Origin: Halosimplex salinum
GTDB lineage: Archaea > Halobacteriota > Halobacteria > Halobacteriales > Haloarculaceae
Length of the DNA: 37,389 nucleotides
Assembly: GCF_003730195.1 (NCBI RefSeq)
Contig: NZ_QWGG01000018.1
Coordinates: 1-37,389 of the forward strand
Direction: 5' to 3'
Below are positions 118 through 19,673 of the stretch, one piece after another. How positions within the stretch are numbered: the stretch's first letter is position 1; every line of letters starts with the position of its first letter. The translations under genes were made by a program, and so were the position numbers. The notes below the pieces were generated by a model, which saw only the letters and a list, made by a program, of their open reading frames with translations, did no database searches and was not told the DNA's origin.

Positions 118-2750
118 ACACGTACAGATATTCTTGTGCCAAATCCTTCTACCTCTCCATCGTATTCACGTACTTTCAGCCACCCAAGATCATCTAATAC
201 CTCTCGAAGATTGAACCGGTCTTCAAACCCAGAAATGTAGCTTTCCTTGAAGTTGGATACTTTCTCAGGATCCAGATCTGACTCAATAATGTAATCTTCT
301 TCTCTACGTTCCAGGATTTCTTGCATTTGGTTATGAAGGGCCAGGAAGACCTCCTTCTTGTACTCTAATTCCTCTATCTCCGATTCTGCAACCCCGGTTT
401 TAGACAATTCTTCCGTGGAAACACTTTCAATCGTTTCCCCTAAATCAGGATAGCTTGGTTTCGCAATATCGATATCGGCCATCGGATTGTCTCCTTCATC
501 TAAATCTTCTAATTCATATCCTTCAGCATCTAGGAAGAGAAGACCCATAGCACAGAAGAACTCCTGTAACCACGTAAAGACAGCAGGCTGACTCACTTGC
601 ACCCCCTTGAAAACGTCTGAGTCCTCCGATTCCCACCTGAATAGGTCAAGGCGGGGATCGGTTAATATCTGGAAATATACCTCTGCCAACTTGTTAAAAC
701 TGTATCTCTTGATAGATTCGCTGAACATAACCTGGAAAACTGACTCAGGAAGGTTACCTGTCTGAACCTCCCTGTAGGCCCAAGCAGCAGCGACAAACCG
801 TGTTTCCTCAAACTCAGACTGAAACCCTTCCACTTTCTCTTGCTGCATCTCCAGCATCTCTAACCGGCTTTTTAACCGATCCAATTCTGGCTGCTCCTGT
901 ATTTCCCTATATCTGGACTGGAATCCCTTCACCAAGTCTTGCTCCCTCTCCAAGAACTCTAATCGATTTTCTAAATTCTCCCAATTCTCTGCTCTCTCTA
1001 ATTCATCGATCCTTCTTCTCAACTCGTAGATCTCAGATTCAGGCCGGACCATCACAAAATCGTCGTCACCCATATTCCACACGTTATTGAACGTCTGCGA
1101 GTCACCTTCCTCAACGGAAAGACGAAGAATATCTTCTAACGTTTCGTAGAAACTCTCGATATCAGAACTCACTCCCTCAACCTCTTCGACTGTGTTGGTA
1201 CGGCCAAGAGCCGCGGTCAACATAGTCAAAATATTATTCATCGAACTCAGAAGACCACTCACAAGACTGTAATCAACGGAGGGCTTGGAGAAAAGAATGC
1301 GATAATATGAGGCATACAAACCAATCGATTTCTCGAACAAGTAGTTCTCTCCTTGGCGGTGGTATGCCAGCGAGAGGCGAAAAATCTCAGCTCGAACTGT
1401 GTTGATCAAGTCAGAGCTCCCAGTCTCCCCGGCGGCCTCCATTATCTGGTAGAACTCACGGTAAATGTGATCCACCAGATCCGAAATCGGAGGAGGAGTG
1501 ACCCCATAGTCTTCGATCACTTCCCGGTTGAGAGTGGTACCATACTGAAGAAGGTCTACGTACAGCTCAAGGTATTTCTCCAGACCAGAGGGATTCAAAT
1601 TGCTAATCGCATTTCTCGTACTCGCACCAATCTGATCTAAATTCCTCTCCATCAAGCGATTGCCAGACTTCCAAGGCCTATCATCACTACAATAAACGGC
1701 TTCAGATAGGCCTTCAGCAAGCCCTCGGGGGACTTCTACAGGATTCACGTTTGTCCCATCGACCGCGACAACATCAACACCCGGTTGCAGCTCTGCTCCA
1801 AGATCTAAGTTGAGTACCAACGCCGATCCCCCGGCTTCATCAAATAAATCGCCGTGCTCTCGACATACTTCGTTCAACTTCTTCAAATCGATGTCAGCGA
1901 TATACCCGTCTAAACCGAGTTCTTGAGCCATGAAGACACGGCCATCCCTGTTAGTTCCCGTTCTCACAAAATCAGGCAGACTACCCTTAAGCAAGTTTTT
2001 CGAAATGGATTGACGGTCTTCCTCCTTTAGCTGAAGATCAATACCGCGCTGAACCTGCTCCACCGACATTTCGTCCATTGGGTCAAAGAAGATCAACCTC
2101 GCAACCCGGTAATACACATATCCAATTCCCAACACAGTGCCTGCAAAGCTGAAAAATGTCGCATCTACAAATAATGGATCCACCTCTTCTGGCGTATGGT
2201 AGAAATAGAGGTATGCAATAAGCCCGGATGAAGCCAACGTGAAATAGATCACCGGCATAATCCGCGAAGATGCAAAGAACTCCTGCACCACACCTTCACG
2301 GTACTCTGTCCGGGAAATCTGCTCCAACAAGAAAATCAAGACAATAAAACTGAGACTGGCAACCGTCAACTGAGCCTGCCAACCTGGCCTAATTAAACCC
2401 GTCTGAACCAAATCAGCCATTGGGAGTCCCAAATACGCCAGCGAAAACACGACGATAAATCCAAGCGGAATAACCCAAAGAAAGCTCCAGTACGTCAATA
2501 TCGACTTCCTGCTCTGAACCAAATTCTTCAACAACCAACGGTAGCCTCTAGACCTGATCTCCTCCCAAAGAGTCTTCAACCGTAGCGAGTTCCACGGGAA
2601 CAAGAATCCAGGATGTCTACGATACAAAGAATCAACGACCGGCCTAACGAAGAAGTAGACAATAGAGATGAGAAAACCTACCATAATTAGGCCTGACAAG
2701 ATCGAATACAACCCTACCGCCCCCAGGTCAACCATCGGGTGATAATTCAA
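84..2750 (-). CDS. Large membrane-anchored coiled-coil protein, function unknown
   Basis: This 888-residue protein has about five hydrophobic segments in the N-terminal quarter (roughly residues 13-35, 90-110, 128-143, 166-185 and 198-217). A long soluble, acidic domain follows. Residues about 585-660 are rich in heptad-like Glu/Leu/Arg repeats (ELRRRIDELERAE and two similar repeats), so a coiled coil is likely. I recognise no catalytic motif. The gene uses more A and T than the operons to its right, including many ATA, AAA and TTA codons, which suggests a separate origin. The ATG at 2750 is the first start before the first hydrophobic segment. It is probably an envelope-anchored sensor, defence or scaffold protein, but no function can be assigned. 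Confidence 0.8.
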   Translation of the reverse strand: MNYHPMVDLGAVGLYSILSGLIMVGFLISIVYFFVRPVVDSLYRRHPGFLFPWNSLRLKTLWEEIRSRGYRWLLKNLVQSRKSILTYWSFLWVIPLGFIVVFSLAYLGLPMADLVQTGLIRPGWQAQLTVASLSFIVLIFLLEQISRTEYREGVVQEFFASSRIMPVIYFTLASSGLIAYLYFYHTPEEVDPLFVDATFFSFAGTVLGIGYVYYRVARLIFFDPMDEMSVEQVQRGIDLQLKEEDRQSISKNLLKGSLPDFVRTGTNRDGRVFMAQELGLDGYIADIDLKKLNEVCREHGDLFDEAGGSALVLNLDLGAELQPGVDVVAVDGTNVNPVEVPRGLAEGLSEAVYCSDDRPWKSGNRLMERNLDQIGASTRNAISNLNPSGLEKYLELYVDLLQYGTTLNREVIEDYGVTPPPISDLVDHIYREFYQIMEAAGETGSSDLINTVRAEIFRLSLAYHRQGENYLFEKSIGLYASYYRILFSKPSVDYSLVSGLLSSMNNILTMLTAALGRTNTVEEVEGVSSDIESFYETLEDILRLSVEEGDSQTFNNVWNMGDDDFVMVRPESEIYELRRRIDELERAENWENLENRLEFLEREQDLVKGFQSRYREIQEQPELDRLKSRLEMLEMQQEKVEGFQSEFEETRFVAAAWAYREVQTGNLPESVFQVMFSESIKRYSFNKLAEVYFQILTDPRLDLFRWESEDSDVFKGVQVSQPAVFTWLQEFFCAMGLLFLDAEGYELEDLDEGDNPMADIDIAKPSYPDLGETIESVSTEELSKTGVAESEIEELEYKKEVFLALHNQMQEILERREEDYIIESDLDPEKVSNFKESYISGFEDRFNLREVLDDLGWLKVREYDGEVEGFGTRISVRVYPEDSTAGTA

Positions 2751-3078
2751 ATTTTGGATTATTAATACCTGTGACTACATCCAGATCTCTATGGCCCCAC
2801 ATTCTTGTCGTTACGGAGAGCCGGGCAGAGTTCCTTGATAAAATTCTCCTCCCGGTCAGTCACAAGTTCCTGATGATTCCGTGCCACTCTGTGAATAAGG
2901 TATATTTTGCTAACCAATATCTCTCTGAGCTCTCTATGCTGTGACCGATACGCGCGCTGTATCTCGCACGGCTACTGGAACATTTCTCGGAACTGGTACG
3001 CTAAGACAGAGCCGTTGAAGCCAGTCTCGGAACATAGTCGGTCGGTTTTTCTCTCCTACTGAAATCGAGAGCGGTTTC
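2751..3078. other. Divergent intergenic region, no assigned gene
   Basis: This 328-base stretch lies between the minus-strand membrane protein gene and the plus-strand DUF6884 operon, so it should hold both promoters. A minus-strand frame at 2789-2971 is open and looks protein-like but has only a TTG start near 2917; it may be a small gene or a remnant. No clear inverted repeat or RNA gene was seen. Confidence 0.4.
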
Positions 3079-3204
3079 ATGCCTACACAGTCACCCACGA
3101 CGACCGAGACGGCGTACTCTGCGTTCGTGCGTCGGTACGGTTTCCCCGGCCCGGAACGTCACACCATCCCCCATCCCCGCTCAACTAGGTGGACGAGTCG
3201 ATGA
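3079..3204 (+). CDS. Possible 41-residue leader protein of the DUF6884 operon
   Basis: An ATG at 3079 opens a 41-residue frame whose TGA (3202-3204) overlaps the ATG at 3201 of the next gene as ATGA. Several neighbouring operon genes are coupled in the same way (for example 4049/4052 and 24070/24073), which is the main support. The sequence contains AYSAFVRRYGFPGPERH and is basic at its end. I recognise no family. It could be a genuine small protein, a leader peptide that couples translation, or chance. Confidence 0.3.
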   Translation: MPTQSPTTTETAYSAFVRRYGFPGPERHTIPHPRSTRWTSR

Positions 3205-4052
3205 GTATCTCGCCGGCGCATCCATCGGTCGAGTCCGCCAACGACCCCGTCTCCCCTACGGGCGAACGGATTCAGCTCAGTGACCTCTCGGATATCTACG
3301 AACACGGGGCGCTCGCTCTCATCGGGTGTGGGGCCGCAAAGCGCAACCCAACCGACGAAAACGACCTCCGCCTAGCCTCGGTCGGTTCCGACGAGTCCTT
3401 CGGCCCCGACTGGACGGACGAAACCGGGCCCGCGTGGAAGGCTCGCGACCTCTACTCCTCGACCTATTTCCGCCTGAAGAAGCAGTTCGCCAGACGCCTC
3501 GCCAGCGTCGAGGGCGGCCGAGACGGCACCAGCCCGTGGGCGATTCTCTCCGCCAAACACCACGTCCTGATGCCCTGGAAGGACGTCAAGTACTACAACA
3601 AATCAATCGACGATCTCGGCGACGACGAAACGAATCCCGATCACCGCGTCGAAAATCCCAATGGCCTCCGCCGGCCTGACGGCCGCGAGATAGTTACAGA
3701 GCTCGACCAGTGGACGCGGCTCGTCGCATTCGGCCTCATAAAGTGGATTGCGTCCTTTCGCGCTGTCCGCGACCCGGCGGAAACGACGAATGCGCAGACG
3801 CTCTTCATCCTCGCCGGTCAGGACTACATCAACCCACTTCGCGACCGCGGCGTCTTCAAATACGGGATTTCGAGGATGACCGGCAATCCCAACCAGCTCA
3901 TCGAATTCCCCCTCGAACCCCGCTTCCTCTTCGAGGAGTTCAACAATGACGGCATCGGTGACCAGATGTGCTGGCTTTCGGACGCCATCGACCAACTCGA
4001 CGAGCCCGTAGCGCCCACAGAGCAGGCGACCTTCGAGGGGTGGTCGCTATGA
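3201..4052 (+). CDS. DUF6884 (YaaA-like) family protein
   Basis: The protein has 283 residues from the ATG at 3201; a GTG at 3189 would add four residues. Family signatures are IGCGAAK (residues 41-47), ARDLYSSTYF (81-90) and ILSAKHHVLMPW (115-126), the pattern of DUF6884/YaaA-like proteins found in phages, plasmids and bacteria. The Lys-rich Cys-containing first motif and the 'SAKHG-like' second motif probably line a nucleic-acid or nucleotide site, but the reaction is unknown. The stop codon overlaps the next start as ATGA, so it is translationally coupled to the zinc-finger gene and lies two genes before a cytosine methyltransferase-like gene. That context favours a role in DNA handling or modification, by inference only. 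Confidence 0.75.
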   Translation: MSISPAHPSVESANDPVSPTGERIQLSDLSDIYEHGALALIGCGAAKRNPTDENDLRLASVGSDESFGPDWTDETGPAWKARDLYSSTYFRLKKQFARRLASVEGGRDGTSPWAILSAKHHVLMPWKDVKYYNKSIDDLGDDETNPDHRVENPNGLRRPDGREIVTELDQWTRLVAFGLIKWIASFRAVRDPAETTNAQTLFILAGQDYINPLRDRGVFKYGISRMTGNPNQLIEFPLEPRFLFEEFNNDGIGDQMCWLSDAIDQLDEPVAPTEQATFEGWSL

Positions 4053-4582
4053 CGGAGAACGCTACTCTTGCAGCCTACACCTCTACCGAGACCGAACTGG
4101 AAGACGCGGCTCCACCGTCGCTCGAAGAACGTCTCCTCGCGGCCGTCTCGACGACGCTCTGTCTCCGCCTCATTCCCGGAACTGGTGATCCCTTCTACCT
4201 CAAGAACCGAGGGAAAGAACGCTATCTCTTCCGTGACGATCACGACCGCTGGTACATCCTCAAGCCGTCGGCAAAGGCTTCCGAGGAGGGCTATATCCGT
4301 TGGGTATTCCTCCCGGAGGATAAGCCCACGTGCCTCGCTCGCACCGGGCTCGAGCATCGCACTGTCGTCGGTTACGACTATGTCCGCCGATCCGAGGCTC
4401 CTGACCCAGTCGAGACTACAGTCACCACGAAGGAACTCACGGCTAGCTGGGGCGAAACAACCTATGAGTGCGGTGCGTGCGGCGAAGACTTCGACGAATC
4501 ACTCGATCACGCGCTCCACTGTTGGGAGGAACATCCGTGGATACCGACGCCTGGCCAGGTTCGTCTCGAACGGGGGAGGTAA
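4049..4582 (+). CDS. Zinc-finger protein, function unknown
   Basis: The ATG at 4049 overlaps the DUF6884 stop. The product has 177 residues. Its C-terminus carries a C2H2-like finger, with Cys141 and Cys144 in CGAC and several possible ligands in HALHCWEEH (His154, His157, Cys158, His162). The middle part (KNRGKERYLFRDDHDRWYIL) looks like a small beta-rich domain. The gene sits between DUF6884 and the cytosine methyltransferase-like gene with almost no spacing, so the three are probably co-expressed. A DNA-binding accessory role is plausible but not shown. Confidence 0.7.
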   Translation: MTENATLAAYTSTETELEDAAPPSLEERLLAAVSTTLCLRLIPGTGDPFYLKNRGKERYLFRDDHDRWYILKPSAKASEEGYIRWVFLPEDKPTCLARTGLEHRTVVGYDYVRRSEAPDPVETTVTTKELTASWGETTYECGACGEDFDESLDHALHCWEEHPWIPTPGQVRLERGR

Positions 4583-4585
4583 CCG

Positions 4586-5320
4586 ATGTCAGTCATCTCA
4601 GATGGCACTATCGGCGACCAAGCTCTCGAAGATCTCTGGGATCGCCCACTCGCGCTCGATCTCTTTGCCGGCGCCGGGGGCGCCTGCCGGGGCCTCCAGA
4701 CGTACGGCCATCACGGGCTCGGCTGGGAAGTTATCGGCATCGACGCTGACCAGCGGAAGGCTCGCTACTACCCTGGCGTCTTCGTCAAGCACGATCTGAC
4801 CGAGGGACTTCCCGAGGTCGTCGACGACTACGCCGACCAGATCGAAGTTGTCTGGGCCTCTGCCCCCTGCAGGTTCGCGACGGATCTTCAATTCGCACGT
4901 TCCGGAGAGAACCTCATCCCGCTCGCCCGCGACCTCTGTCAGGAGATCGATCCGCCGGTGTGGATACTCGAGAACGTGCCGGGTGCTCGCGATCATCTTG
5001 AGAATCCCGTCCAGTTCTGCGGGTCAGCGTTCGGCCTTGGCGTCCGCAAACACCGGCTCTTCGAGACGTCGTTCTTCGCGCACGGGACGCCGTGTTCGCA
5101 CCCCGAGAAGTTCGACTACGCAATCGGCGACCGCGAAGCCCCGGTGACCGGCTACCGGCAGGTCCACGGTCTCTCCCCGCACGCACCGTTGACCGCGAAA
5201 GCCCTACGCGAGGTCATTCCACCTGCCTACATCCACGAACTCCTCGATCAGTACATCCACTACGCCCCGCACACCCACGAAACCGCTCACTCGGCCGACC
5301 ACACTCCAAAATGCCAGTAA
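4586..5320 (+). CDS. Compact C5-cytosine DNA methyltransferase-like protein
   Basis: The 244-residue protein has the ordered motifs of C5-cytosine methyltransferases: SAM-binding DLFAGAGG at 25-32, ASAPCR with the candidate nucleophile Cys95, ENV at 129-131, RKHRLFE at 154-160 (motif VIII), and a motif X-like ending with IPPAYIHEL near 210-220. It is much shorter than typical enzymes (over 300 residues) because little target-recognition sequence lies between motifs VIII and X. Motif IV reads APC instead of PPC. A GGGGGAGG purine run before the ATG could act as ribosome-binding site. No restriction endonuclease is adjacent, so if active it is an orphan methylase or part of a modification operon with DUF6884. 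Confidence 0.8.
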   Translation: MSVISDGTIGDQALEDLWDRPLALDLFAGAGGACRGLQTYGHHGLGWEVIGIDADQRKARYYPGVFVKHDLTEGLPEVVDDYADQIEVVWASAPCRFATDLQFARSGENLIPLARDLCQEIDPPVWILENVPGARDHLENPVQFCGSAFGLGVRKHRLFETSFFAHGTPCSHPEKFDYAIGDREAPVTGYRQVHGLSPHAPLTAKALREVIPPAYIHELLDQYIHYAPHTHETAHSADHTPKCQ

Positions 5321-8569: not shown

Positions 8570-8675
8570 ACCTTCAGCAAGCAGACGTCTCAACTAACCG
8601 GCTTTGTGATGTACTGAGGCTGTTTACCGACGTCGCGTCATCACTAACATTCAGCTCACTCGAGGAGGCCGTTCA

Positions 8676-9371
8676 TTGGTCGTTCACTTCCAGGAACGGC
8701 TCCCTGCCGATGAGTCGATGGTCGCAGCGCTCCATTCGAGTGATCCTGAGTGGCGTACATACCCACCAGCGGGAATGCCGGATTTCCCACAGATGGACGT
8801 CGAACCTGGTGAAAAACCGGATTGGAGGGTTTCCCATTGGGAACCCGAGCGTGTCACGCCACCGCCTCTCGAGGACGTCACCGACCTCACAGTCCACCGC
8901 GTTTGTGGACGAGGGAGTCGGCAACTCGTCAATCACCTTCTTATCGGTGGTCCGGACGGCCGCATCGACCACCGCCTCGGCGGTGTCGCGAAATGGAAGG
9001 CCGGATTCATCGCTACCCACGAGGGGCATCCGTACTCAGTGGCGGTACTCGCACAGCCGTACACATACAGTTACGACGGGGCTCGTGAAGAGCTGTATGT
9101 TACACGGCTTGCGAATCACCCGAATCGCCCACCGAATACGTCGAGTTGGATGCTTGCGCGTCTTCGAGACTGGGTACGTGAGAATACCGACCGAAAGCGG
9201 CTCGTCGCGATCGCCGGCGTCGACGACAACACTGGAGTCTGCTACCGAGCCGCTGGGTTCGAACTCGATCGGATCAAACCCGTCTCGAGTACTGATTGGG
9301 AGAACCGTGAAGGACGTACTGTGCCCCGTCGCGACGAGTGGACTAAACGAAGGTACATCTCATCAGTATAA
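8676..9371 (+). CDS. Mom-like GNAT-fold protein
   Basis: The likely start is TTG at 8676, placed seven bases after a strong GGAGG (8664-8668); an ATG at 8718 is the alternative. An in-frame stop at 8607 blocks further extension. Residues about 104-197 resemble the GNAT-like fold of phage Mu Mom and XF1762-type proteins: LYVTRLANHP, then NTSSWMLARLRDW (154-166) and GVCYRAAGFEL (187-197). Mom adds a carbamoylmethyl group to adenine in DNA and blocks restriction. Assignment rests on motif order only. The gene directly follows the ISH3 element and may have lost upstream sequence to it. Confidence 0.55.
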   Translation: MVVHFQERLPADESMVAALHSSDPEWRTYPPAGMPDFPQMDVEPGEKPDWRVSHWEPERVTPPPLEDVTDLTVHRVCGRGSRQLVNHLLIGGPDGRIDHRLGGVAKWKAGFIATHEGHPYSVAVLAQPYTYSYDGAREELYVTRLANHPNRPPNTSSWMLARLRDWVRENTDRKRLVAIAGVDDNTGVCYRAAGFELDRIKPVSSTDWENREGRTVPRRDEWTKRRYISSV

Positions 9372-9382
9372 CATCTAATTAG

Positions 9383-12564: not shown

Positions 12565-13095
12565 ATGTCCGTTGTTCTCCAATCCGAGGCGAACCGCCGT
12601 CAAGCCCTTCGAGAACTCTTGCAGGCCCTTGAGGACCATACGCCGCCGCCACGAGGTCTCGCACAAACCAAGTCTGGCGTCGTAGCTGCGATCGGGCCCG
12701 CACCGATGACCACCCGTGCGTGGTTCCTCGAGCGATATCCTCATCTCAAGGCCAGCGAAGAAACCACCGAAGCGCAGGTCTTCCGAGCGTACTGTTTCGC
12801 CCCGACTCACATTCGAAAACCAACTACGGATCCCCGCGATCACGTCCAAGGGAACTTCGTAGAAGATCACCTCGCCACCTGTCAAGTGTTCGTCCTCGAT
12901 CTTTCTGCTACCCACTTCGAAAATCACACGAGACTGGACGAAATTCTCCGGATCGCCAGCGAGCAATTCTCTCCTATCATCCGTGACGGTCGACGTGTCC
13001 TTGAGAAGACGATTGTTGGTTCCGCTCGAGACGTCCACGCACTCTATCAGCGCACTCGATATCAACCAGCTTGCGACCCATCGACGAATATGTGA
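12565..13095 (+). CDS. Hypothetical protein
   Basis: The 176-residue protein starts 24 bases after the methyltransferase-like gene and is probably co-transcribed with it. The N-terminal half is helical, and there is an AWFLERYPHLKASEETTEAQ segment that looks like a small helical DNA- or protein-binding domain. No family was recognised, and there are no membrane segments. Confidence 0.65.
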   Translation: MSVVLQSEANRRQALRELLQALEDHTPPPRGLAQTKSGVVAAIGPAPMTTRAWFLERYPHLKASEETTEAQVFRAYCFAPTHIRKPTTDPRDHVQGNFVEDHLATCQVFVLDLSATHFENHTRLDEILRIASEQFSPIIRDGRRVLEKTIVGSARDVHALYQRTRYQPACDPSTNM

Positions 13096-13194
13096 ATAAC
13101 ACTGCTCCTCGATAGGAACGACGACTACACGCTCGCTCGCGTCGACGACTAGCCAGTTCACGTTGGTCATTCGTAACATTACGGAGTCCTCACG

Positions 13195-14202
13195 ATGCCA
13201 TCGAATTCCCAATCCCAACTCGATGCGTTCACGACGACCGAAGAATCGACATCCGCCCACTCAACAAATACTACCGCAGTAACATCGACGACTGAGAAGT
13301 CTGAAGCGACCCACTCCACAGCGAAAACACCGCTAAACGATTTCTACGAGGATATCCAGAGGGTCTTCGAGGAAACATATCCGTCAGCACTGTTGAATGT
13401 CGATCAGGTTATGGCGCTCACTCCGGATCATAACGTCTTCTGTACGTCTGACCTTCCTGATGAGCTCGAGGTCGCCCCAGCCCGTATCGGTCAGTGGGAA
13501 CTCGACTACCACGACGACACAACCGTCACCTACCGAGCCTCGGGACGCGTCTTCGACGAACGATGGGGAGAAGGCGGGTCGATCGTCCGTCACCGCGTCT
13601 ACTTGAACGACTCCGGAGCGAACCGCGACGGGATGTGGCACTATATGACCGAACTCGTGACCGGCTACGGGAACCCCTCACAGGTTCGGAAGGCAGACAC
13701 CAGCGATAAGGCGCGACTCTCCGGGATACGCGGCCACAGCGTCCAGAACAACGACGGCGACTACGGCGTCTCCGGAGGGACGAACGCACGCTTTGAAGAC
13801 ATCAAGACCGCAGTCGCGACGGTCGTTGCCCAACTCCATACAGAGCCCTCCACAATCCGAACGCACCTCCCCGACACCGACGAACAGGAATGGACGCTCA
13901 CCAAATACGGCCTCAGAACGGCTACTTACGAGCGGCTGGCACCAAACGAGACAGATTACGACTACTTGCGTCTCACCGCGACGCAGGATCGCGTCTACCT
14001 TAAGGGGGCCAAGGAGAATGAGCCATCAGCTCACCACGACCGCGTGCCTGTCCCCATACCTGATTCGATCCCGCCCGCCTGTGCGACTCAGACCGAGCGA
14101 GCGACCACCGTTGTTGCCTCCTCGCTTTCCCCGCTGCTCATCGAGCCTATCCTCAAACAGCCAGTCGAGGAGGTTCTTGAAGCCATCGCGCTTCCACAGT
14201 GA
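13195..14202 (+). CDS. Hypothetical protein with a disordered N-terminus
   Basis: The 335-residue protein opens with about 45 Ser/Thr/Glu-rich residues, likely disordered, then a globular domain predicted alpha/beta (FYEDIQRVFEETYPSALLNV and following). It contains an internal segment rich in Gly/Asn/Asp (RGHSVQNNDGDYGVSGG). No catalytic motif was recognised. It follows the previous gene after about 100 bases on the same strand. Confidence 0.65.
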   Translation: MPSNSQSQLDAFTTTEESTSAHSTNTTAVTSTTEKSEATHSTAKTPLNDFYEDIQRVFEETYPSALLNVDQVMALTPDHNVFCTSDLPDELEVAPARIGQWELDYHDDTTVTYRASGRVFDERWGEGGSIVRHRVYLNDSGANRDGMWHYMTELVTGYGNPSQVRKADTSDKARLSGIRGHSVQNNDGDYGVSGGTNARFEDIKTAVATVVAQLHTEPSTIRTHLPDTDEQEWTLTKYGLRTATYERLAPNETDYDYLRLTATQDRVYLKGAKENEPSAHHDRVPVPIPDSIPPACATQTERATTVVASSLSPLLIEPILKQPVEEVLEAIALPQ

Positions 14203-15949: not shown

Positions 15950-16191
15950 TCACTCAATACAACGGCCTCCTTGATCGAATCATCGAGTCGGGAACGTCCC
16001 GATTCCCGAGAACCAGAAGGAAGACCTTTCGTGGTACAGCATCCGTCACGGGGTCGCAATGTATTGGGCGAACCACGTTGACCCCACACCACGTGAAAGA
16101 ACAACTCCGGTACAAAAGCGTCACGACGACGATGAAGTACCTCCACTCAGACTCGGACACCCGAGGGAGTGCGGTCGAACAAATCTGGTAA
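15950..16191 (+). pseudogene. C-terminal remnant of a tyrosine recombinase/integrase, frameshifted
   Basis: One frame reads ...KEDLSWYSIRHGVAMYWANH, the conserved region of haloarchaeal phage-type integrases around the catalytic Arg. Near 16080-16090 the match moves to another frame that reads TPHHVKEQLRYKSVTTTMKY and continues with LHSDSDTRGSAVEQIW before TAA at 16189-16191. KEQLRYKSVTTTMKYLH contains the expected catalytic tyrosine near the end. No start codon or N-terminal domain is present, so this is a decayed fragment. It marks a former integration site or the edge of an island, directly upstream of the zinc microprotein array. Confidence 0.8.
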
Positions 16192-16232
16192 TCTTCGCAG
16201 TTTTTCTCTATCTCTTTGACACCCGCAAAACT

Positions 16233-16239
16233 GATATAT
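16233..16239 (+). promoter_or_regulatory. TATA box of the zinc microprotein operon
   Basis: GATATAT, preceded by an A-rich BRE-like gcaaaact, is centred about 25 bases before the ATG at 16261. This spacing predicts a leaderless transcript beginning at the first microprotein gene. Confidence 0.6.
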
Positions 16240-16260
16240 CGAGATTTACAGCTTTGATGT

Positions 16261-16371
16261 ATGAGTGGAGACGATAGAGAGCCAATTAAGCGATATGTAA
16301 CTTGTTCAAAGCCCGGTTGCGACAATCAAATTGGCCGGGAACACGATTTCTGCCCCCTACATCGAGAATAA
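16261..16371 (+). CDS. Zinc-finger microprotein 1 of tandem array
   Basis: This 36-residue protein begins MSGDDREPIK and has the array motif Cys-x4-Cys-x10-Cys-x2-His (Cys15, Cys20, Cys31, His34) with the invariant IGREH before the second pair. It probably folds around one zinc ion. TAA overlaps the next ATG by one base, so translation is coupled. The gene is too short for usual gene-calling cut-offs, and its reality rests on four related neighbours. Confidence 0.8.
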   Translation: MSGDDREPIKRYVTCSKPGCDNQIGREHDFCPLHRE

Positions 16372-16478
16372 TGTCAGATGATGAGAGGCGGATGCTCCAA
16401 GGAGTTTGTAGGGAAAATGGCTGTGACAATCGCATTGGTCGGGAACACGATTACTGCTTCAAACACCGGGAGGCTTAA
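16371..16478 (+). CDS. Zinc-finger microprotein 2 of tandem array
   Basis: This 35-residue protein (MSDDERRMLQ...) has Cys13, Cys18, Cys29 and His32 in the same Cx4Cx10CxxH spacing, with RIGREHDYCFKH. Its ATG shares a base with the stop codon of copy 1. It is closest to copies 1 and 5 in the GREHD(F/Y)C part. Confidence 0.82.
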   Translation: MSDDERRMLQGVCRENGCDNRIGREHDYCFKHREA

Positions 16479-16489
16479 TCTACTCCGCT

Positions 16490-16606
16490 ATGTCTGATGA
16501 TGAAGATAAACTGAGTATATCGGCTAATGTTAAAGTGTGCCTCGAAGACGACTGTGAAGCCAGCATTGGGCGAGAACACAAATTCTGTCCGAAGCACCGA
16601 AGGTGA
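16490..16606 (+). CDS. Zinc-finger microprotein 3 of tandem array
   Basis: This 38-residue protein (MSDDEDKLSI...) has Cys17, Cys22, Cys33 and His36 with SIGREHKFCPKH. It starts 12 bases after copy 2. The N-terminal 14 residues differ from the other copies while the zinc site is conserved, as expected for diverged paralogues under selection for the fold. Confidence 0.82.
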   Translation: MSDDEDKLSISANVKVCLEDDCEASIGREHKFCPKHRR

Positions 16607-16608
16607 TT

Positions 16609-16722
16609 ATGTCGGACGATGACCCCTTTGAGATAGATCGAAAGCTTAGCTTGTGTGCTAAGTCGGGATGTGACACTCCCATAGGCCGAGAACACGAATT
16701 TTGTCCAAAACACCGAGATTGA
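16609..16722 (+). CDS. Zinc-finger microprotein 4 of tandem array
   Basis: This 37-residue protein (MSDDDPFEID...) has Cys16, Cys21, Cys32 and His35 with PIGREHEFCPKH. Only two bases separate it from the stop of copy 3. It is closest to copy 3 at the C-terminus (FCPKHR). Confidence 0.82.
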   Translation: MSDDDPFEIDRKLSLCAKSGCDTPIGREHEFCPKHRD

Positions 16723-16724
16723 GT

Positions 16725-16835
16725 ATGTCTGACGACGAATTTGAAACCGAGGCATTACAGAAGACCTGTGCTGAATCGGGATGTAAAACCGCAGTAGGGC
16801 GAGAACACGACTACTGCTTTGAACACCGTGAATAG
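16725..16835 (+). CDS. Zinc-finger microprotein 5 of tandem array
   Basis: This 36-residue protein (MSDDEFETEA...) has Cys15, Cys20, Cys31 and His34 with AVGREHDYCFEH. It starts two bases after copy 4 and ends four bases before the membrane protein gene, so that gene belongs to the same operon. Confidence 0.82.
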   Translation: MSDDEFETEALQKTCAESGCKTAVGREHDYCFEHRE

Positions 16836-16839
16836 TTAG

Positions 16840-17409
16840 ATGATTTCCATAGGATTGGTATATCTCATTTTACTTGGCGCTTTTATATCCGTTCCCGCTG
16901 GTCAGATTTTGATCAATCCAGCATCGACTACCGAAGCTCCCTCCTCTGAGGATTCAATGTCGGTGGTTGATAGAACAGCATCAGAATCGGTCGCCCTGTT
17001 TGCTATCGTATTAGTGGTGATTCAGTTTATACTGGAAGATAACCAGATGGGCTACTATCAGGAACTTACGATTGGAGTTCTGACTGTCTGTGCTGGTTTC
17101 TTGATGCTCACGTTCATTCTAGAACTCTTTAGTGACATTCGAGTAGTCCTATTTCATCTACAAATCACAGCTCTCAGATACTCCGGACTGCTTCTGTTTT
17201 CTGGACTGTTTTTCCTCCTCCAATCATACCAATTGAATCCGCAAATACAGTTACTATTCGGTGTGTTCGTTCTCCTTTCGTGGGTCACTTGGATAGTCCA
17301 CGAGCTGAACTACCTATTCAGAATCCAGCGTAGGGAGTGGGATAACAGAGATATAGATAGAGGTGAGTGGTTCCGCAAAGCAATTCGCAAAAAGCTCCCA
17401 TCCTCGTGA
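16840..17409 (+). CDS. Five-helix membrane protein at the end of the microprotein array
   Basis: The 189-residue protein has about five hydrophobic segments (residues 3-26, 48-66, 76-97, 113-131 and 137-157) and a basic, charged C-terminal tail of about 30 residues (RIQRREWDNRDIDRGEW...), likely cytoplasmic. No family was recognised. It starts four bases after the last zinc microprotein gene, which makes shared transcription and a shared function likely. Codon use is AT-rich like the array and unlike the operons at 11-15 kb. The IS701-type element sits 70 bases downstream and does not interrupt it. Confidence 0.75.
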   Translation: MISIGLVYLILLGAFISVPAGQILINPASTTEAPSSEDSMSVVDRTASESVALFAIVLVVIQFILEDNQMGYYQELTIGVLTVCAGFLMLTFILELFSDIRVVLFHLQITALRYSGLLLFSGLFFLLQSYQLNPQIQLLFGVFVLLSWVTWIVHELNYLFRIQRREWDNRDIDRGEWFRKAIRKKLPSS

Positions 17410-17479
17410 GATCTGGCTCTGTTGAAATCCTCAGCATATGATATATTCTGACCCGGTTGCGGTCAATACAGACAATTAA

Positions 17480-17495
17480 CTCAGCTTTGCACGTT
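17480..17495 (+). repeat. Left terminal inverted repeat of the IS701-type element
   Basis: CTCAGCTTTGCACGTT. It includes the stop codon of the transposase, which ends at 17481. Confidence 0.8.
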
Positions 17496-18704
17496 AGCGT
17501 CGGCGGTTGAGTGAACGAAGAGGTGGTCGATTTCTTCCATGAGATCATCGACGCCACGATCATCGTTGTCTCGAACCCACGAGAGAAGATTGTATACGGC
17601 CTCTTTCAGGGAATGTTCGAGGTTCGCTCGAAGCGATGACGCCTTCGAGCGAACCGTTCCCAAGGCGCTCGATTCAGGATCAAGACGAACGAGACTGTAG
17701 GCAGCCATCAGAAGGTGCCAGTGCCGACTGGCACCTTCGTCAGTCTGCATCTCGCAGTCTCCCAAGCCGAGATCCTGTTTCGAGTCCTCGAAGAACGTCT
17801 CGATGCGCCACCGCATCCCATAGGAGCGAATCACGTGCTCGGTCGGTGCGTCGATTTTGTTCGTGGCGAAGTACTTGACCGGATTCTCTTCGTCGTCCTC
17901 GGTTTCTTTCTCGGCGAGAACCAGCTTCACGTCTCCCAGTTGGGAGACGGGAAGCTTCTTCGTCCAGATGTGGTAAGCGTCATCCTCGATGTCGCGCTCA
18001 ACTGTGTCGATGCGCTCTGCCAGCGCATCGACGCGGAGTTCTTCGCCGGCGTAAGTCACCTTTCGATTGCTCCGAAGTGGGCCGATCCAGTCCTTGTCGT
18101 AGGATTCGATATGGTCAGGAAGGCCAGAATCGTGAGCGAACCACGAGTCGAAGAGGTAGGTGTCCGCAGGCACACCTACCTCTTCTTCGAGCTCCGTGAC
18201 GATGTCTCTGGCCAGATCGTATTTCGTATCGTGGTCGTTGTCCTCGTTGTCTTGCTGTTCGTAGAGGCGGAAAGTGAGTGGATAGGCGGTTTTGTCGTCA
18301 GCGTAGAAGGCGTAGATGAGGTCTTGACCCCAGACAGTGTCACCTTCGGCGTGATCGTAGAACCGGCCGACGCCGGGGACTTCGTCCCCGGCTTTCTCGG
18401 TGATCGTGTCGTCGAGGATGATGTAGCCATCCTTCGACCAGCGCGTTTCACCGTGTTTCTGAAGCTCTTCGAGGCGTTCGTGGTTGAACTCCTGTTCGTC
18501 CCAGTCGTACTCGGTGAGGAACTTGTTGAGGGCGCGTTTTCCCTGAGCTGGAAGGACTTCGCGTGCGATACCCGCCACGGTCTTGTTGCTGGCGGCAACA
18601 AGACCGGTGGCGTAGGTTTTCGCGTGATGACGTTGTGCTGGTGACAGCGACTCGAACTCGTCAAACACGCGCGTACACGACAAGAATTCCGTAATCGGCA
18701 TCAT
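17481..18704 (-). CDS. IS701-family transposase
   Basis: The 407-residue protein has the family hallmarks: an ILDDTITEKAG segment near residues 95-105 with the first catalytic Asp, GVGRFYDHAEGDTVWG after it, FDSWFAHDSG with the second Asp, and RWRIETFFEDSKQDLGL with the catalytic Glu. Length is usual for the family. The frame is undamaged and the element's ends are intact, so it is probably active or recently so. Confidence 0.93.
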   Translation of the reverse strand: MMPITEFLSCTRVFDEFESLSPAQRHHAKTYATGLVAASNKTVAGIAREVLPAQGKRALNKFLTEYDWDEQEFNHERLEELQKHGETRWSKDGYIILDDTITEKAGDEVPGVGRFYDHAEGDTVWGQDLIYAFYADDKTAYPLTFRLYEQQDNEDNDHDTKYDLARDIVTELEEEVGVPADTYLFDSWFAHDSGLPDHIESYDKDWIGPLRSNRKVTYAGEELRVDALAERIDTVERDIEDDAYHIWTKKLPVSQLGDVKLVLAEKETEDDEENPVKYFATNKIDAPTEHVIRSYGMRWRIETFFEDSKQDLGLGDCEMQTDEGASRHWHLLMAAYSLVRLDPESSALGTVRSKASSLRANLEHSLKEAVYNLLSWVRDNDDRGVDDLMEEIDHLFVHSTADANVQS

Positions 18705-18740
18705 CCGTCCTTGCCACCGCCTACGTCACGCTCCTACTTC

Positions 18741-18756
18741 AACGTGCAAAGTTGAG
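18741..18756 (-). repeat. Right terminal inverted repeat of the IS701-type element
   Basis: AACGTGCAAAGTTGAG, the complement of CTCAACTTTGCACGTT. It lies about 37 bases before the transposase start. Confidence 0.8.
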
Positions 18757-18848
18757 CAATTAAGTAATCACTTGATGGCGACGGCGAGCGCGAAGACGCG
18801 CAGAACCAGATCAATAACCATGATTCGCGTCGGGGCGCGTCATCCCGG

Positions 18849-19673
18849 TCACCCAACGAGCCCGGATTTGTAGTCGTCGCGGTCGTCGGACAGTTTATCT
18901 AACCGGGCTTGCGGGAGGCGCAGCGTGAATTCCGTATTCCCAGCTGATTTCTCGTCTATGTCTGAGACGTGGCCTTCGAGCGGCTTGTCCTTGATGACTT
19001 TCGTTGTCCCGACGAAATTCGACCCGGTGTAGGTGAGCCCGCTCTCTTCGACCGTGAGCTCGACCGCTGTCACCCCCGCGGTGTGCGGCGTGCCGCTCGT
19101 CCGCCATTCCTCGACCGTTACTTTCGACCCTTTTGAGATATCCACAAAGTCTTCCATAGTAACGTCGAGCTCAACGCGATCCACGCCCTCCACGTCGTCC
19201 AGGTTCGGCGTCTCGTCGGGCGACTCAATAGCGTTGTACAGCTTCGCAGTGATCTCGTTGATATTGTCCTCGGTGACTTTGTCGCCGATTATATTAGCGA
19301 GACTCGGACTTTCCTCTTGGAGTTCTTCAAACTCCATCCCGTGCAGTAGTGGGAGAATGACGTTCTCGTCCGCTTTATTGTGCTTCTGCACGAGACCATC
19401 GAGCTCCCATTCGGACATCCCCTCGAAATACGACGGGGAGATGAGGATGACAGCGTGTTCGGATTCCGTGAGGGCGCGGTCAATTGAGGAGCGGATGTTG
19501 TCTCCAATCCCGAGTTCGACGCCGTCGTACCATACATCGAGGCCGTACGCGGTGAGTTCGTCGTAGAGCGCGTTTGCTACGGGTTTGGAATCTTCGTGCG
19601 AGTAGGAGATCATCGCGTCGTATTCTTCCTCCCGTTCCTCCGCGGATTCGCCGGTTTCAGGTTCTTCGGTCAT
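18849..19673 (-). CDS. TIR-domain protein, candidate defence effector
   Basis: Residues about 17-120 of 274 form a TIR domain: YDAMISYSHEDS, LDVWYDGVELGIGDNI, SEHAVILISPSYF and SEWELDGL, where Glu90 is the likely catalytic glutamate. Prokaryotic TIR domains commonly cleave NAD+ or make cyclic ADP-ribose signals in anti-phage systems. The remaining 150 residues are beta-rich and acidic without a recognised domain and could sense a ligand or partner. A TATA-like element about 29 bases upstream, and GGGAG before the ATG, indicate its own promoter. The small membrane protein gene lies 70 bases upstream on the same strand. Confidence 0.85.
   Translation of the reverse strand: MTEEPETGESAEEREEEYDAMISYSHEDSKPVANALYDELTAYGLDVWYDGVELGIGDNIRSSIDRALTESEHAVILISPSYFEGMSEWELDGLVQKHNKADENVILPLLHGMEFEELQEESPSLANIIGDKVTEDNINEITAKLYNAIESPDETPNLDDVEGVDRVELDVTMEDFVDISKGSKVTVEEWRTSGTPHTAGVTAVELTVEESGLTYTGSNFVGTTKVIKDKPLEGHVSDIDEKSAGNTEFTLRLPQARLDKLSDDRDDYKSGLVG

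Follow-up and report, generated by a model that had tools for sequence, protein, structure and literature searches.

A virus-derived array of zinc-finger microprotein genes and a membrane protein gene as likely prophage cargo of haloarchaea

We analysed a 37,389-nucleotide stretch of DNA from Halosimplex salinum (contig NZ_QWGG01000018.1; hereafter the window) and identified a module of five tandem zinc-finger microprotein genes and a membrane protein gene (16261-17409, + strand) that also occurs behind the integrase of viruses of the genus Haloferacalesvirus. From its position, the module most likely encodes virus-borne immunity or superinfection exclusion, and we assign a probability of about 0.5 to the reading that it is accessory cargo of temperate Haloferacalesvirus-type viruses that would shield the lysogen from other viruses, through exclusion or an infection-stopping membrane effector. 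Accessory and defence cargo of prophages is itself known; the module is likely an undescribed example of the defence type with an unusual anatomy, copies of which would also have stayed behind in plasmids and chromosomes of hosts.

Array anatomy and selection on its proteins

ORF inspection confirmed at exact positions the array set out in the original prediction: five consecutive ATG-initiated frames of 35-38 codons, each encoding a C-x4-C-x10-C-x2-H motif and GREH, followed four bases later by a 189-codon frame. The microprotein genes lie on the + strand at 16261-16371 (copy 1, 36 aa), 16371-16478 (copy 2, 35 aa), 16490-16606 (copy 3, 38 aa), 16609-16722 (copy 4, 37 aa) and 16725-16835 (copy 5, 36 aa), with spacings of -1, +11, +2 and +2, and the membrane protein gene follows at 16840-17409 (+). 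A six-frame search of the 37-kb window for the C-x4-C-x10-C-x2-H motif gave five occurrences, all within 16201-16840, and none of 300 shuffles of this 640-bp segment gave the motif. Hydropathy analysis likewise bears out the five membrane segments foreseen for the 189-aa protein, which ends in a basic tail containing ten Lys/Arg; by the positive-inside rule this tail is probably cytoplasmic. A TATA-like box, GATATATC (16233-16240, +), stands approximately 21-28 bases 5′ of the first ATG, a placement that fits a leaderless transcript, and the intergenic sequence GACACCCGCAAAACTGATRTAT is kept in both virus and host copies. A Rfam search found no RNA in the module region. Two parts of the original description hold for the window and not for the wider family. 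The single TATA box is not general, because copies 2 and 4 of the Haloplanus ruber array (8589-9374, - strand) each have a TATA-like TTTATAC approximately 27 bases before their ATG, and this array may comprise several transcription units; GREH, present in all five window copies, is replaced by GKED in viral copy 1 and by RGRKYC in the genome G370.

Comparison of the window genes with their viral orthologues in HRTV-21 by the Nei-Gojobori method demonstrates much silent and little protein change, from which it follows that the microproteins and the membrane protein are genuinely encoded and subject to purifying selection. For the microproteins together dN/dS is 0.15, with values of 0.21 for copy 1 (orthologue gp43), 0.13 for copy 2 (gp44), 0.31 for copy 3 (gp45) and 0.18 for copy 5 (gp47); copy 4 (gp46) differs by 20 silent and 7 replacement changes with dS saturated, and the membrane protein, 79% identical to gp48, has a dN/dS of 0.14. 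The earlier expectation of selection on protein is thus upheld, and neutral change is not supported. Pairing window and viral microproteins copy by copy is the best of all 120 pairings, and N-termini are 68% identical between orthologues compared to 37% between paralogues; each copy, judged from these alignments, therefore retains its own N-terminus.

Searches of PADLOC, Pfam, NCBIfam and PHROG gave no match above cut-off for either protein; Pfam DUF4818, CxC6 and PBP1_TM all fell below it. Weak sub-threshold matches of the microproteins are the WRKY19-type zinc finger PF24906 (at most 18.2 bits where the cut-off is 27, E 0.002, for a G370 copy only) and phrog_144, the zinc loops of phage HNH proteins (E 0.055, copy 1). 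Copy 5, modelled with moderate confidence (pLDDT 70), has predicted strands at residues 12-14 and 23-25 in a beta-hairpin and a predicted helix at 32-35 beginning beside C31 and H34, a layout that may be of the treble-clef kind and for which Foldseek returned only matches with E above 3, including a non-significant likeness to the A20 zinc finger. The predicted fold of the membrane protein (pLDDT 51) was too poor for structure search, and profile searches of PDB sequences returned nothing useful. DUF499 ATPase-like proteins of approximately 1100 aa (loci 1599-4898 and 594-3902) carry, close to their C-terminal end, a finger of similar C-x4-C...C-x2-H form; we do not count them as family members, as only finger spacing is in common.

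Viral origin and spread of the module

A tblastn search of 50,697 phage records recovered the membrane protein at 79% identity in five records representing four virus isolates, HRTV-13, HRTV-21, HRTV-24 and HJTV-2, all Haloferacalesvirus (Hafunaviridae). A match in Dunaliella viridis virus SI2 (E 9) was taken as chance, and an IMG/VR search returned only a genome of HJTV-2 length again. All four viruses share one gene order: tRNA-Thr (attP), a small gene, the integrase, five small genes that are the same five microproteins in the same order as in the window, and the membrane gene, with winged-helix and RtcB genes on the opposite strand. HRTV-21 gp43-gp48 and their counterparts are annotated as hypothetical, and the records propose no function. 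Directly upstream of the window array lies the 3′ end of this integrase (15961-16191, +; last approximately 76 of 397 codons), a stub with two frameshifting indels and 81% DNA identity to HRTV-21. Because identity at this level continues over a 1443-bp stretch that starts in the integrase and extends into the membrane gene, the DNA alignment identifies the window module as a viral fragment, the cargo of a Haloferacalesvirus integrase slot, a context that the original prediction had not recognised; the rest of the provirus would have been lost, leaving module and stub on a plasmid.

The window region is plasmid-like, with matches in Natronomonas marina and Halorarius halobius plasmids, which come from a family-level search apart from the 391-genome draw described below. 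The module has 0 differences in 1213 bp from these two plasmids, an identity of little weight given that the flanking DNA is almost as well conserved, and their gene tables include none of the five microproteins. An insertion sequence 3′ of the module (approximately 17473-18762; DDE transposase 17481-18704, - strand; inverted ends CTCAGCTTTGCACGTT / AACGTGCAAAGTTGAG; CAATTAA target duplication) is present in the window and absent from both sister plasmids, indicating from sequence comparison that it entered after the module was in place. Elsewhere, positions 12817-13516 are 13% diverged from the sister plasmids within an otherwise 98-100% identical stretch, a patch that suggests local recombination. 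A TIR-domain gene (18849-19673, - strand; PADLOC candidate PDC-S66, E 1.3e-34, weakly ThsB) is convergent with the module and adjoins it in both related plasmids. We rejected it as a module partner given this orientation and the lack of a TIR gene near the viral, Haloferax sulfurifontis, H. ruber, Halorubrum saccharovorum and G370 modules.

Across 391 haloarchaeal genomes, the membrane protein occurs in six, and finger arrays, two to five copies long, occur in exactly the same six. The proposed partnership with the membrane protein is therefore strict, and homologues, whose absence would have counted against the original prediction, occur in these genomes and in the four virus isolates. Weak membrane-protein matches in the genomes G200 and G025 lack an array and were set aside, the G025 protein having a rhomboid domain. 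Copy number varies among carriers: H. sulfurifontis ATCC BAA-897 has five copies with copy 1 damaged by loss of a zinc ligand, H. ruber R35 has five, H. saccharovorum DSM 1137 and G370 have three, and there are two in the genome G034. Upstream of the modules of H. sulfurifontis and G034, too, the integrase found in the window survives as a decayed stub, and the G370 module adjoins an unrelated tyrosine recombinase and has fingers without GREH. In G034 a clean deletion joins copy 2 to copy 5 within the GREH codons with loss of three copies, and this joint identifies recombination between repeats, at the sequence level, as a route by which array copy number changes. In H. ruber and H. saccharovorum the copy beside the membrane gene is nearest by pairwise identity to the window and viral copy 5, the sequences being too short for a tree to resolve.

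The integrase slot as a cargo site

In the four isolates the module fills a slot close to the attachment site, bounded by the integrase and a convergent winged-helix gene. This slot is empty in 12 related viruses, where no sequence separates the integrase stop from the winged-helix gene, and holds other cargo in further relatives: a PLD-like protein matching PADLOC candidate PDC-S05, itself only a candidate defence family, in HJTV-3, HRTV-16 and, by position, HRTV-9; a 48-aa Cys-containing protein in HSTV-3; and, in a provirus of genome G379 whose integrase is 95% identical, a GmrSD restriction protein. PMC7230728 likewise reports a DUF262 gene for the HF1-group provirus Hdep-prov1. With PDC-S05 and GmrSD proteins in the same slot, the module is placed by gene order in a slot that also carries defence genes. 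Less related integrases of the same type are followed by, among others, a restriction-modification gene and a CBASS cyclase accompanied by Cap15. One such CBASS locus (G209:C17:35500-42900) encodes the cyclase and a Cap15-type membrane effector behind a Haloferacalesvirus-like integrase (72-73% identical) beside tRNA-Thr. In the genome that contains the window, a further integrase of this type (73% identical) is intact and precedes an Eco57I-like methylase or restriction gene (C22:1-6500). Seven of ten cargo proteins behind such integrases match PADLOC at E below 1e-4, one of the seven weakly, a biased count in that the ten were chosen by size and place; none of ten core viral genes around the slot matches.

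Slot position points to cargo of advantage to the lysogen, in the simplest case because other viruses are stopped, and makes plausible the defence role that the original prediction had offered as a possibility. The G370 module beside an unrelated recombinase also counts for the cargo reading. Weighing against it, the carrier isolates were obtained as plaque-forming viruses, slot position is an indirect argument in that prophage slots also house metabolic and regulatory cargo, and PADLOC detects no homology of either protein to a known or candidate defence protein.

Competing readings, proposed mechanism and known systems

A regulatory role is the strongest competitor, although we consider it unlikely: the microproteins, in the manner of other HF1-group viral CxxC microproteins, would be small nucleic-acid- or protein-binding regulators of the integrase, of lysogeny or of host genes, with the membrane protein as a link to the envelope. 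The module adjoins the integrase and winged-helix genes, and PMC8707807 and PMC7230728 describe co-transcription of a CxxC microprotein with the HF2 integrase and report that further zinc-finger microproteins of haloarchaea are regulators. However, most viruses with the same integrase and winged-helix gene are without the module, which is therefore not required for lysogeny control; the G370 copy stands beside an unrelated integrase, and the membrane protein is left unexplained. We regard as improbable that host copies are functionless provirus leftovers, with selection acting in the virus only. Decay of the adjoining integrase stub, the damaged H. sulfurifontis copy 1, a dN/dS of 0.36 and 0.39 between window and H. 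sulfurifontis and the loss of three copies in G034 are in keeping with such a remnant, but all six window genes are open beside two frameshifts in the 231-bp integrase stub, dN/dS between window and G034 is 0.09, and three host lineages retained the module while losing the remaining provirus. Least probable in our judgement is an addiction module in which microproteins neutralise a toxic membrane protein and so retain the provirus or plasmid. The small genes lie upstream of the membrane gene and are tightly coupled to it, the two strictly co-occur, and they are found on plasmids; yet one toxin needs no five diverged antidotes with copy-specific conserved N-termini, no known toxin-antitoxin family was matched, and copy number ranges from two to five while the membrane gene is kept.

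If the module is cargo that protects the lysogen, the membrane protein would be the putative effector, acting either through an entry block at the membrane (superinfection exclusion) or by stopping infection, and the microproteins would be putative small zinc-binding, treble-clef-like adaptors. The copy adjoining the membrane gene may be the core partner, with the other copies, each with its conserved N-terminus, broadening what is sensed or bound; acidic microprotein N-termini could pair with the basic tail of the membrane protein, which we offer as an idea only. Tentatively, and with more doubt than confidence, we propose one membrane effector wired to a recombining zinc-finger adaptor array, in which specificity would be gained or lost via copy number. 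Arrays used as recognition modules would, if this holds, form an unusually small modular sensor set. The module is compact, with six genes, and open to testing. It draws attention to a slot behind the integrase in which defence genes are carried, in an intensively studied group of archaeal viruses whose lysogeny functions PMC8707807 calls unexplored. The module also illustrates that genes below routine annotation size can be selected and mobile.

Published accounts of HF1-group viruses describe many CxxC microproteins and an attP-CxxC-integrase unit, and the array was not encountered in the accessible parts of these papers (PMC7230728, PMC8707807); the term 'zinc finger' is absent from the main text of PMC8651126, which reported many of these virus genomes, and a search of the main texts of open-licence papers yielded nothing on such arrays. 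The one-domain CxxC microproteins of haloarchaea and HF1-group viruses resemble the array products in small size, zinc-ligand cysteines and hosts, but have CxxC knuckles, and the accessible part of PMC7230728 reports no tandem paralogues with a membrane gene, whereas the array encodes C-x4-C-x10-C-x2-H fingers. The PF24906 and phrog_144 fingers share the C-x4-C ... C-x2-H ligand pattern with the microproteins, which differ in being without an HNH nuclease or WRKY domain. The PDC-S05 PLD-like protein (HJTV-3, HRTV-16 and HRTV-9) and GmrSD (G379 provirus) have the slot in common with the module but are single nuclease-like proteins unrelated to it in sequence. The closest counterparts, HRTV-21 (gp43-gp48), HRTV-13, HRTV-24 and HJTV-2, are like the window in all six genes, their order and copy-by-copy orthology, and unlike it in having an intact integrase and a whole virus genome. 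We know of no superinfection-exclusion or membrane-effector system with tandem zinc-finger partners, and found no sequence relation of the module to such systems. In prophage superinfection exclusion and membrane-effector defence, as in the module, a small multi-helix membrane protein is carried by a prophage, and the working would be similar if the proposed model holds.
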